36,062 bases of DNA from Bryobacterales bacterium (GTDB taxonomy: Bacteria; Acidobacteriota; Terriglobia; Bryobacterales; Bryobacteraceae): contig SHUI01000011.1 in assembly GCA_009697455.1 (NCBI GenBank), forward strand, positions 1 to 36,062, read 5' to 3'. How positions within the stretch are numbered: the first letter of the stretch is position 1; each line of letters starts with the position of its first letter. Positions 8,696-27,813 of the stretch are shown here, one piece after another. The position numbers and the translations under genes were made by a program. Under the pieces are notes generated by a model, which did not search any database, was not told the origin of the DNA, and saw only the letters and a program-made list of their open reading frames with translations.

Positions 8696-9073
8696 TAAAA
8701 ATGGTGTTGATCGAACTCCGTCCCCATCGCTCAGCCTGATTCGCCCGTTTCCGAAGATCGCAAACACATTCCCAAGGGGCAGAGCAGACCGAGGTAGGGC
8801 GTTCCGGTCTGAGCGCATTTCTTTTCATGGGCCACCACGCGCGGTTAGCCGAACCTTGTGTCAGGCCTAATCCGCTGAACGCCATCGGTACCGGCCCTTG
8901 AGCAGGCCGGCGCCGATCCTACTTTACCTACATCAACCGGACCAGCATTCGTCCCGAGCCTCAGTTGAAGCGTGGAGTTTTTTCTCTATTCACGCTTCAA
9001 GGGCGAGCCGCGGCAGTCAAGCGCGCAATCAGCGCCGGTTTCGACAGTCTCTCGGCACGATCTACGCTTTGCC
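8696..9073. other. Intergenic region without a recognisable gene
   Basis: The 378 bp between the anti-sigma gene and the end of the aldehyde dehydrogenase gene hold no ORF with natural codon use in either direction and no recognisable relic. The one structured element is the inverted repeat at 8965-9000. No clear intrinsic terminator follows either convergent gene. Confidence 0.5.
8965..9000. repeat. Perfect 10-bp inverted repeat with 16-nt loop
   Basis: TTGAAGCGTG (8965-8974) is matched exactly by CACGCTTCAA (8991-9000). The loop holds a T-rich run. No T-tract follows the stem on either strand, so it is not a textbook terminator, but it lies between two convergent operons where a bidirectional terminator or operator would be expected. 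Confidence 0.6.
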
Positions 9074-10501
9074 TTACACAGCGATGTCTAGCGTCTGAAA
9101 CGCACGCGGCCGGAACAGAAACTCCACGATGTTGCCTTCGTGCGGCTGAAGCCAGTCCAGTTTGATCGTGGGGAGCGGACCAATGTTCAAGCGATCGATG
9201 TGCCTGGCGTCGATCAATTGCCGCGTCCACTGCGCGTCGTGGGTGACGGCGCTGCATACCAGCGTCGGACCGATCTTGCCTAGCATCTGCTCCTGCGGGC
9301 ACTCGACCACGCTTACGTAGGGGTACATGAACTCCGTGTTCGCGAGGCCCGCGGCGGGTGAATCGCAGTGAATCACCGTCGGCCGCAGATACCCGCACCG
9401 CTCCCTCTCGACCAGACGGGGACCGAAGGGCGCGGTCATGTGGGTCACGCCGGTTTCGTCGAGTTTACCCGCGATGGAATTCCAGATCGCCTTGGCAGAG
9501 CCCGGTATGGTGAACGCCGCCAAAGCCGCCGTGGGATCTTCCGGCGGTTTCGCTTCGATCGGCCCAAGCCGCTCGGCGAGCGCCTGCGCGATCTCCTTCG
9601 TGTGCCGCGACGCCCACACTCCCGAGCAGTTGATGCATCCCCGGCCGCTGTTCAGATAGACGCTATCGGCCATGATGTCGATGTACTTCTCCCATTGGTC
9701 CACAACGTCGTCTCCGAGCAAAATTTTGCTGAAACCTGGCCCATGGACCTGCACTCTCGGATCGCCCTTGTAGCGTTCGACCGTTGCCGTGCCGCCGAAA
9801 ATCATGCTCCGGCCTGCGCGCCGGACCACTTCCGCGCCCATGTCGCCGCCTCCCGGGTAGATCGCGATCGCTTCCTTCGGAATTCCCGCTTCCGTAAAAG
9901 CTGCCGCCATACGGTAGGGCGTCCAAGGCTCCTGCGGCCCGGGCTTCAGCAGCAACCCGACCTGCATCGGAATCACCGGCAGCCAAAGCGTATGGACTCC
10001 TGGAGAGTTCGAAGGCAGCACAAGTCCCAGAACCGGCGACTGCGTCTGGTAGCTCACGACCACGCCGCGCGATTCCATGCCATAGCCGCGCGTCAGAATG
10101 TCGAGGTTCAGGCCGCGCGTGAGGCAGTCGAGGATCTGGTCCATGTGATGCAGCACGAAGTGATTCTTCTTCATGTTGCCCGCGCACATGTGCTCCGGCA
10201 GTCCGGTACTGGCGGATTGCTGGCGCGCGAAATCCTCCGGCGATTGTTCACCATCGCCCATTCGCAGCGTTCCATTAAGGTAGAGATCGCCGGCCTTCTT
10301 CATGATCTCGATGAGTTCCGGGATCGGGATCTCAGCCAACACGTCGCGCGCGCGGCTTGCCATGCGCATGTCGCGTCCGAGCAAACCGGTGTTCGCCTGG
10401 CTCACCTTCGCGAGCGTTTTCCCGGTGAGAAAGTGGACAACCGAGTCCTGTTCAAGACTCGTGTAGGGTTGGCCCCATCGCAAAATCGGCAGGTTCAGCA
10501 T
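9074..10501 (-). CDS. Aldehyde dehydrogenase-fold acyl reductase (LuxC-like role suspected)
   Basis: 475 residues of the aldehyde dehydrogenase superfamily. The nucleotide-binding half shows PVLGLVLPSNSPGVHTLWLP, LLLKPGPQEPWTPYRMAAAF and MIFGGTATVERYKG. The catalytic cysteine region is NSGRGCINCSGVWA, with C289 as the likely nucleophile and C292 near it. The late ALDH feature EFMYPYVSVVE is also present. It is not a standard ALDH: the N-terminal ~130 residues are unlike the usual substrate domain. It starts 3 nt after the stop of an adenylate-forming enzyme gene. The pair recalls LuxE/LuxC, where an acid is activated and reduced to the aldehyde. Direction of reaction and substrate are inferred, not shown. 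Confidence 0.8.
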   Translation of the reverse strand: MLNLPILRWGQPYTSLEQDSVVHFLTGKTLAKVSQANTGLLGRDMRMASRARDVLAEIPIPELIEIMKKAGDLYLNGTLRMGDGEQSPEDFARQQSASTGLPEHMCAGNMKKNHFVLHHMDQILDCLTRGLNLDILTRGYGMESRGVVVSYQTQSPVLGLVLPSNSPGVHTLWLPVIPMQVGLLLKPGPQEPWTPYRMAAAFTEAGIPKEAIAIYPGGGDMGAEVVRRAGRSMIFGGTATVERYKGDPRVQVHGPGFSKILLGDDVVDQWEKYIDIMADSVYLNSGRGCINCSGVWASRHTKEIAQALAERLGPIEAKPPEDPTAALAAFTIPGSAKAIWNSIAGKLDETGVTHMTAPFGPRLVERERCGYLRPTVIHCDSPAAGLANTEFMYPYVSVVECPQEQMLGKIGPTLVCSAVTHDAQWTRQLIDARHIDRLNIGPLPTIKLDWLQPHEGNIVEFLFRPRAFQTLDIAV

Positions 10502-25670: not shown

Positions 25671-25746
25671 GGGCCTGTGGCGCAGTTGGGAGCGCGCTTC
25701 CATGGCATGGAAGAGGTCGACGGTTCGAACCCGTCCAGGTCCACCA
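25671..25746 (+). tRNA. tRNA-Ala (anticodon GGC)
   Basis: 76 nt folding as a full cloverleaf with encoded CCA. Acceptor stem GGGCCTG pairs with CAGGTCC (one G-U). D arm GCGC/GCGC, anticodon stem CTTCC/GGAAG around the loop ATGGCAT giving anticodon GGC, and T arm GACGG/CCGTC around TTCGAAC. Reads alanine codons GCC (and GCU). TATATT at about 25649-25654 may be its -10 box. Confidence 0.97.
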
Positions 25747-26269: not shown

Positions 26270-26297
26270 AAGAGGAACTTATGAAGAGGAACTTATG
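26270..26297 (+). repeat. Perfect 14-bp tandem duplication of a ribosome-binding site and start codon
   Basis: AAGAGGAACTTATG occurs at 26270-26283 and again at 26284-26297. Each copy holds GAGG and an ATG with proper spacing. The copies are out of frame with each other. The first ATG (26281) encodes only six codons and stops at TGA 26299-26301, overlapping the second ATG (26295), which starts the long gene. Confidence 0.9.
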
Positions 26298-27587
26298 TTG
26301 ACGCAAGTAAGCATTTCGCGAAAGATGATTCTGATCGCATTGACGTTCTCGTTGCCAATCGCGGTGCTGACATATCTCATGGTTGTTAGCATTGACTCGA
26401 ATGTCGAGTTCGCCGTCAAAGAGACGAAAGGGAACACCGTCCAACGGGGATTGGCCGAACTGTTGCGGAAGGTACAAGAGCATCGTCTTGCACGGTTGGG
26501 TTGTCAGAACGGGCAGGAATGTGAGGGACGGTTGTCCGTGCTCCAGGCGGAGGTAGGCCAAGCGTTCCAACAGACACAGGCGGCGTTGGATCAGGTCGGC
26601 GCCCCGCTGCAGTTCACGACGGCTGGACTGGGGGCCAGAGGCCGCCAGCATCTGTCGTTGGAAACAATGCGGCGCGAGTGGAGCGAACTGACCGGCAAGC
26701 TTCCCGACGCCGACCTGGCGGCGAAGCACGATCACTTGGCCTCGGATATTCGGGGCATGATCACACACGCGGGCGACACTTCGAACCTGATTCTGGATCC
26801 GGATCTGGACAGCTACTACCTGATGGATGTAACCCTGCTGGCGCTGCCCCAGGCGCAGGAGCGGTTGGCGCGGGTCGGTGTGTTGGGGAGCGCGATAATC
26901 CGCGGCGGGAAGCTGACACGGGACGACCAGATCCAACTCGCAGTGCAGGCGTCTATGATGCAGGAAGCGGATCTGGACCGGATTGTAGCGAGTACGGGCA
27001 CCAGCCTCACCGAAGACCCCAACTTCTATGGCGTCCGGGCGAGATTGCAGGAGCGGATTCCGCCCGCGCTGAAGCGCTACCAGGCGGCCGCCTCGACGTT
27101 CATTGGCATGAGCCGGCGGCTGGCGAGCGCCGAACGGCCTGAAGTCACCGAGAAGGAGTACCTGCAGGCGGAGGACGAGGCGCACCGCGCGAGCTTCGAG
27201 TTCTGGAGCGTGGCCGTGGATGAACTGGATGGCCTGCTGGGAGCGCGCATCGCGAGCTACCAGGACAACCGCAACTGGAGCCTTGGCTTAGCCAGCCTGT
27301 CCGTGCTGGTGGCATGCTTGTTGGCGTTCTTCCTGGCGCGAAGCATTGTGGTGCCGCTGCGGGACGTCATGGGATCGCTGGGACCTGGCGCGACGCTGCT
27401 TGGTGTGTGCGTGGAGAGGATCGCCGAGGCCAGCAAGAACCACTTCTCTAATCCCGAAGAAGCCACGCTGATCTGCGAGGAGCTCGATGCTCACGCCGAT
27501 GGAATGCGTCAGAGCGTGCTCGCTCTAGCCCTGCAGGTGGAGGGCGCGCAGAGGGCCGAATCCGTCGCTGTGGAGCACAATGCCTAG
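26295..27587 (+). CDS. Membrane receptor-like protein with periplasmic sensor domain but no signalling domain
   Basis: 430 residues. Membrane segment at about 10-32, then a ~290-residue extracytoplasmic domain, then a second segment around 328-348 (LSVLVACLLAFFLARSIVVP). The sensor part contains ILDPDLDSYYLMDVTLLALP, a motif seen in methyl-accepting chemotaxis proteins and histidine kinases with long helical sensor domains. The second segment leads into ARSIVVPLRDVMG, a HAMP-like entry, but only about 80 residues follow, with no methyl-accepting, kinase or cyclase domain. The frame is open to its stop, so this is not an obvious frameshift. ATG 26295 lies in the second copy of a duplicated ribosome-binding site. 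The next gene overlaps by 8 nt and may supply a partner. Confidence 0.7.
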   Translation: MLTQVSISRKMILIALTFSLPIAVLTYLMVVSIDSNVEFAVKETKGNTVQRGLAELLRKVQEHRLARLGCQNGQECEGRLSVLQAEVGQAFQQTQAALDQVGAPLQFTTAGLGARGRQHLSLETMRREWSELTGKLPDADLAAKHDHLASDIRGMITHAGDTSNLILDPDLDSYYLMDVTLLALPQAQERLARVGVLGSAIIRGGKLTRDDQIQLAVQASMMQEADLDRIVASTGTSLTEDPNFYGVRARLQERIPPALKRYQAAASTFIGMSRRLASAERPEVTEKEYLQAEDEAHRASFEFWSVAVDELDGLLGARIASYQDNRNWSLGLASLSVLVACLLAFFLARSIVVPLRDVMGSLGPGATLLGVCVERIAEASKNHFSNPEEATLICEELDAHADGMRQSVLALALQVEGAQRAESVAVEHNA

Positions 27588-27813
27588 TCCCCTATTTACG
27601 AGGCTTCTGGCGGTCACCCGTCCCTACATGGACGAGAAGAAGGCGGCTGAGGTGATCGAGAGGCAGATAGCCAAGATCGGGGCGACAGCCGACACACTCG
27701 CCGCGACGCATCTGGGAGGGCTCAGGGATAGAATCAGCTCTGTGCTGGGGTTGTACGTTTCGGATGCCGGCAAACGCGAGGAAATGGTCGTCAAACTCAA
27801 AGCGTTCGCCTGA
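27580..27813 (+). CDS. Small soluble protein coupled to the receptor-like gene
   Basis: 77 residues, no membrane segment or signal. Helical and amphipathic: MDEKKAAEVIERQIAKIGAT, then DRISSVLGLYVSDAGKREEM. No known motif recognised. The ATG lies inside the end of the receptor-like gene (8-nt overlap), so the two are translationally coupled and probably act together, for instance as a cytosolic partner of the membrane protein's short tail. Confidence 0.6.
   Translation: MPSPLFTRLLAVTRPYMDEKKAAEVIERQIAKIGATADTLAATHLGGLRDRISSVLGLYVSDAGKREEMVVKLKAFA

Follow-up and report, generated by a model that had tools for sequence, protein, structure and literature searches.

The cytoplasmic hairpin of MCPs (MCPsignal, PF00015) ends in a conserved tip, through which the receptors assemble into trimers and bind CheA/CheW. 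The length of this hairpin varies by paired heptads, but to our knowledge the CheA-contacting tip is retained in all described chemoreceptor hairpins. For the described MCP classes, passages of one paper give 12 to 32 paired heptads (PMC6628036). Receptors without an effector are also on record: Tll0287-like/DUF3365 (sCache_heme) receptors consist of the sensor, transmembrane helices, and HAMP, and a HAMP-only Tll0287 receptor is already in print, in passages that name no small partner protein (PMC12889525). The initial annotation of the locus described here, which proposed a receptor without an output domain paired with a small soluble protein, knew of no described arrangement of this kind; our literature search, conducted mostly outside subscription journals, likewise found no description of a tip-less or output-less receptor with a small partner.

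The locus lies in a window of 36,062 nucleotides (the whole stretch of DNA that was analysed) from a Bryobacterales bacterium. Its receptor shares the TM1-sensor-TM2 layout with MCPs of the HAMP-less kind (e.g., L003/L004), but it has neither a MCPsignal match nor the tip, and its remaining hairpin stub comprises about 5 paired heptads versus 12 to 32 in MCPs. We regard the arrangement as belonging to the MCP kind, with a partner family that is new; it may, without proof so far, represent a new signalling class.

Layout of the receptor and its partner gene

The two overlapping open reading frames are indeed on the same strand at 26295-27587 and 27580-27813, with an overlap of 8 nt, as originally placed. 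Their features are as follows:

26295..27587, + strand: tip-less receptor gene, 430 aa, with TM1, an all-helical extracytoplasmic sensor, TM2, and a short cytoplasmic hairpin stub
26313..26387, + strand: receptor TM1, residues ~7-31 (hydropathy; model helix 7-69)
26388..27275, + strand: extracytoplasmic sensor, residues 32-327, modelled with a fold similar to the NasR NIT domain
26763..26828, + strand: best-conserved stretch of the sensor, THAGDTSNLILDPDLDSYYLMD, residues 157-178 (mean pairwise identity 83%)
27276..27341, + strand: receptor TM2, residues ~328-349, with no HAMP behind it (hydropathy, Pfam, model)
27342..27437, + strand: N-arm of the stub, residues 350-381, matching the start of the MCP N-arm (residues 350-379, 64% identity)
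27438..27452, + strand: variable loop in place of ~196 MCP hairpin residues including the tip (crossover, model)
27453..27548, + strand: C-arm of the stub, residues 387-418, matching the C-terminal end of MCP signalling domains
27580..27813, + strand: gene of the small partner, 77 aa, predicted to form four helices (mean pLDDT 85), overlapping the receptor stop by 8 nt

Hydropathy bears out the two membrane segments, at residues ~7-34 and ~327-359, and leaves only about 80 cytoplasmic residues after TM2. An AlphaFold2 model, built from an 11-row alignment and with a pLDDT of about 60-72 in the tail, has a single unbroken helix from residue 286 to residue 381, which runs through TM2 into the tail, then a short turn and a second helix at residues 387-416. 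This continuity, together with the lack of any Pfam HAMP match at E<=1 in the window receptor and the 10 other members scanned, led us to reject the HAMP-like entry that had been proposed behind TM2. The rest of the original description, a receptor lacking output with a separate partner, holds up: there is no known output domain, the pair is stable, and the small family also occurs beside other output-less receptors. The window receptor matched no Pfam family at E<=1, and MCPsignal is absent from the families matched at this threshold by any of the 11 members.

Origin of the cytoplasmic tail

The closest long homologues of the receptor (G001, 38% identity; G030, 37% identity) run on into a full MCP domain, and in both of them MCPsignal is present and HAMP is absent. 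Their sensors are 37-38% identical to that of the window receptor, and both ends of the MCP hairpin are recognisable in its tail. Across the order, a profile of the tail gave nine strong and two intermediate matches; a further 19 of 19 loci examined (L048-L066, with a place in G080 outside this set) lie in MCP genes, although two of these, L049 and L053, are broken or partial frames. The non-member matches fall at the C-terminal end of the MCP genes.

Columns 1-34 of the tail correspond to the beginning of the MCP N-arm, 117 residues ahead of the tip motif, and columns 35-70 to the final part of the C-arm, with column 1 at +79; the best crossover between the arms falls at columns 32-36, which form the variable loop. 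The registers are largely constant: on the N-side 16 matches are at -117 and 5 elsewhere, and on the C-side 19 are at +79 and 2 elsewhere. In an averaged test on the 23 of 37 MCP frames that have a canonical tip, the register score of each arm was reached by 0 of 100 column shuffles. Individual N-arm matches are weak (i-Evalues of 0.002 to 26), and the N-arm assignment therefore rests on the constant register and the averaged shuffle test. The two registers differ by 196 residues, or 28 heptads, a multiple of seven on which we place no reliance. Because the registers, the crossover, the shuffles, and the model agree, we take the tail to be the base of an MCP hairpin from which the rest has been removed. 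The base of both arms of the antiparallel hairpin is present (register shuffles; model helices 286-381 and 387-416), the conserved tip (QTNILALNAAVEAARAGE type, CheA/CheW) is absent, and the base of the N-arm passes directly into that of the C-arm. About 34 residues per arm remain and ~196 residues are gone.

On the sensor tree, one change is enough to account for all 13 tip-less rows (support 70/90), which makes it likely, as far as the sequences tell, that the tip was lost once. The initial annotation held that homologues continuing into a methyl-accepting domain would mark the receptor as a truncation. Such homologues exist, at 37-38% identity, and the protein is a truncation in that sense; however, since the short form, with a conserved tail of its own, recurs in 11 genomes, they show its ancestry, with internal loss, and not a recent accident. 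Judged from these comparisons, the short receptor is an old and stable shortening rather than a product of decay.

Conservation of the gene pair

In 61 related genomes, the receptor query matched 14 and the small protein 2. The two genes are adjacent in G053, a member of the same order but of a different family, where the identity is 80% for the receptor and 65% for the small protein; Nei-Gojobori dN/dS values are 0.35 (receptor), 0.31 (receptor tail), and 0.38 (small gene). When the 257 genomes of the order were searched with a profile built from two small-protein rows, 10 of them matched, and in nine of these 10 a receptor of 402-448 aa with a likewise shortened tail lies immediately upstream of the small gene. 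When the tail was used to scan a collection of 84,980 species genomes, 10 loci came up, of which eight belong to the genomes above and two (L033 and L036) were new; the small gene is directly downstream in all 10. Conservation of the pair, the check originally suggested, thus extends to 11 genomes including that of the window, with gaps between receptor and small gene of -8 to +26 nt. Every genome of the order with a strong tail match (E<=1e-30; 9/9) has the small family (Fisher p 6e-14 over 257 genomes, with kinship not corrected). Because the pair recurs in G053 at these dN/dS values and in nine further genomes, chance pairing is excluded, and the association of receptor and small gene is well supported.

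Conservation is higher in the tail than in the sensor. Mean pairwise identity, calculated from 10 of the 11 rows (L036, a partial frame, was left out), is 60% for the tail, 37% for residues 31-325, 19% for the loop residues 380-387, and 21% for the last 12 residues; across residues 351 to 417, all 11 rows agree at 20 tail positions, H400 and R405 among them, and the conserved face of the tail has the pattern ICEEL..HA..R..V. Two genomes, G147 and G152, have diverged tip-less receptors (L069 5682-6875 and L070 5470-6690) and no small-family match. No third gene conserved around the tip-less pair was seen in an inspection by eye of heuristic ORFs. The L036 receptor is split by an in-frame stop at 9128-9130 into ORFs 8870-9127 and 9131-10279, either by error or by decay. 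In G226 (L030 1798-3297), the tip-less receptor is preceded, at a distance of about 48 nt and on the same strand, by a gene for a 500-aa protein with an MCP domain.

Sensor fold

The receptor model aligned best with NasR (4akk_A), with a Z score of 19.9 and an rmsd of 3.8 over 268 residues; the next row scored 14.4. The same comparison in Foldseek gave only E 0.029, and helical bundles score high by chance. The sensor resembles the NIT domain of NasR (PDB 4akk) in predicted fold but not in sequence-profile match: a Pfam scan of all 11 members, the window receptor included, gave no NIT row (PF08376) at E<=1, and a sequence-profile search also returned nothing. On the strength of the model, we read the sensor as having a NIT-like fold. 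Nitrate as its ligand would be a guess; the NIT domain of PA4520 did not bind nitrate according to a passage of PMC6381276, and PMC7496416, searched for nitrate-site residues, yielded no passage on them.

The small partner protein

Searches with the small protein gave only weak unrelated rows in Pfam, NCBIfam, and PDB sequences, and no match to a catalytic or DNA-binding family. Its model has no Foldseek match at E<=0.001, although this absence does not prove a new fold, and its best VIA hit (3ddh_A, Z 6.1, rmsd 3.5 over 70) is within helical-bundle noise. Going by the lack of Pfam, NCBIfam, and PDB relatives, the small protein is a new family. Mean pairwise identity among its members is 35%, below the 60% of the tail, and we saw no case in which receptor and small protein are naturally fused. 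CheW and CheV are likewise separate small cytoplasmic receptor partners, but the analogy is functional only: CheW has a beta fold, whereas the small protein has four predicted helices, and no CheW profile matched it or the 11 members at E<=1.

The small family beside other output-less receptors

With a 12-row small-protein profile, a search of the order returned all ten earlier places plus four more (one each in G224, G065, and G073, and an additional copy in G076), the latter at E of 1.4e-7, 1.2e-4, 0.004, and 0.005. All four distant small genes are directly behind a gene for a receptor of 281-282 aa, which comprises a 4HB-like sensor, TM2, and HAMP and then stops; the two genes have a 4-nt start/stop overlap in every case. 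It is this position behind an output-less receptor that supports the four weak matches. An alignment of the two small subfamilies spans 71 columns with a probability of 95.6% (E 1.1e-8), and 50 column shuffles gave 1.0% or less. The four loci (L092-L095, in G224, G065, G073, and G076) are three-gene units of a periplasmic-binding-protein-like gene, the 4HB-HAMP receptor, and the small protein, with Pfam assignments made for the genes of L093.

In G150 (L068 1076-2451), the small gene lies upstream of a receptor with a Tll0287 sensor and a CxxCH haem motif but without an output domain, the short tail of which weakly resembles the MCP C-arm; this locus thus has a small partner of the sort that the published Tll0287 passages do not name. 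The Tll0287 pair was found only in G150 among the 257 genomes of the order. Taken together, searching the order for the small protein alone led to 14 places, each of them next to an output-less receptor, and these receptors are of three kinds: tip-less MCP, Tll0287, and 4HB-HAMP stopping after HAMP.

The family was also searched for outside the order. It was found in 1 of 396 genomes of the phylum, which is the window's own, and in 1 of 4 and 1 of 95 genomes of the families of Baikal-deep-G175 and F1-120-MAGs040, in each case the centre genome itself. No related place was found in viral contigs and none in plasmids at E<=0.1; at E<=10, plasmids contained two weak places, one within an EAL gene and one among other annotated genes. 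These searches used differing queries (10-row, 11-row, and single), so remote members may have been missed. The window receptor matched 14 plasmid records, none of which covers 80% of it. The HAMP-only receptor matched six plasmid records, mostly MCPs; one of the others (H14) is a larger hypothetical gene, and another (H16) is a 302-aa DUF3365 gene annotated on a Rippkaea plasmid. No annotated small-family gene was recognised among the neighbours of H14 and H16 in the annotation table.

Possible role of the pair

The reading that we favour, with reserve but as a probable one, is that the small protein docks on the stub of the MCP-derived receptor and serves as a dedicated output or coupling subunit that replaces CheW/CheA. 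The MCP-derived hairpin has been cut to the membrane-proximal base of both arms, with loss of most of the bundle and of the CheA/CheW-binding tip. The receptor presumably is still a dimer, in which TM2 would pass a conformational change to a short stub of four helices; the small protein, co-translated and itself made of four helices in its 77 residues, would dock on this stub and read it, and, once docked, would carry or gate the output in place of CheW/CheA. The analysis shows the MCP ancestry, the shortening, the conservation of stub and pair, their strict adjacency, and the recurrence of the small family beside two other kinds of output-less receptor. In this scheme we infer the binding and docking, the dimerisation, the ligand, the signal-dependence, the output, and the next step of the small protein. 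Retention of the base, loss of the tip, and a dedicated small protein suggest that TM2 and a short coiled-coil stub may suffice as the whole cytoplasmic half if a partner reads the stub.

Against docking stand the diverged tip-less receptors of G147 and G152, for which no small-family match was found, the lower conservation of the small protein compared with the tail, and the lack of any natural fusion among the cases seen. Moreover, the small protein may only stabilise or inhibit, since it matches neither a catalytic nor a DNA-binding family and its fold matches nothing clearly. As an accessory subunit (a folding factor, a coiled-coil stabiliser, or an inhibitor), it would leave the output to another, unlinked protein. 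We consider this unlikely, though worth serious attention: a small, all-helical, co-translated protein with no recognisable effector feature would suit such a role, and so would the lack of a conserved third gene near the pair, but it is hard to see why one family would then serve receptors with three different stubs, the HAMP-only kind included.

Alternatively, the tip-less receptor could tune ordinary chemosensory arrays, for example through mixed dimers with full MCPs or CheR/CheB sequestration. Its descent from MCPs, the retained hairpin base, and the MCP gene upstream of it in G226 are in line with such a role, as is the number of receptors in G086, where MCPsignal and CheW have 22 and 17 matches. 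However, the other carriers in the order have far fewer MCPsignal/CheW matches: G000 0/0 (74% complete), G053 1/2 (93% complete), G075 1/3 (99% complete), G076 2/3, G137 1/0, G150 2/3, G225 1/3, G226 2/4, and G246 5/7. Ordinary MCPs thus number 0-2 in 8 of these 10 carriers, and the genomes of L033 and L036 (G653 and G654) have 2 and 1 MCPsignal matches; the counts cover these 12 genomes, with G224, G065, and G073 outside. An array role is disfavoured because most carriers have almost no ordinary chemoreceptors. Furthermore, the tip is gone, an F-x-x-F-like C-terminus is present in 0 of 11 tip-less receptors versus 13 of 23 full MCPs (as a sign on CheR/CheB methylation, its absence in these sequences is suggestive only), and the Tll0287 and HAMP-only contexts would be left unexplained. 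We therefore hold array tuning to be improbable.

Finally, the remnant of a decaying receptor, followed by an ORF that is there by chance, would fit the full MCP domain of the closest long homologues and the internal stop in the L036 frame, but we reject it as next to impossible given a conserved pair with the same short form in 11 genomes, a tail more conserved than the sensor, dN/dS below 0.4 in both genes, and the single change on the sensor tree.

The other contexts raise a broader and more tentative possibility, which we hold to be somewhat less likely than not: a new signalling class in which receptors whose cytoplasmic part stops at the MCP-hairpin base or at HAMP share the small four-helix family as their plug-in output subunit. 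Were this true, unrelated sensors (NIT-like, haem-Cache, and 4HB with a periplasmic binding protein) would feed one kind of pathway, common to them and without a kinase, a cyclase, or a chemotaxis array. Because the small family recurs with HAMP-only receptors, a general question becomes testable, namely what annotated output-less receptors talk to.

Surroundings of the pair in the window

Promoter and terminator scans near the pair gave nothing above shuffles. A tRNA-Ala gene (GGC) at 25671-25746 lies between a LolA-like gene and the pair. The start of the receptor gene is crossed by a repeat:

26270..26297, + strand: 14-bp tandem repeat, AAGAGGAACTTATG, across the receptor start, within the region 26270-26301

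The first ATG, at 26281, opens a 6-codon ORF that runs over the receptor start, and translational control of the receptor by this upstream ORF is possible.
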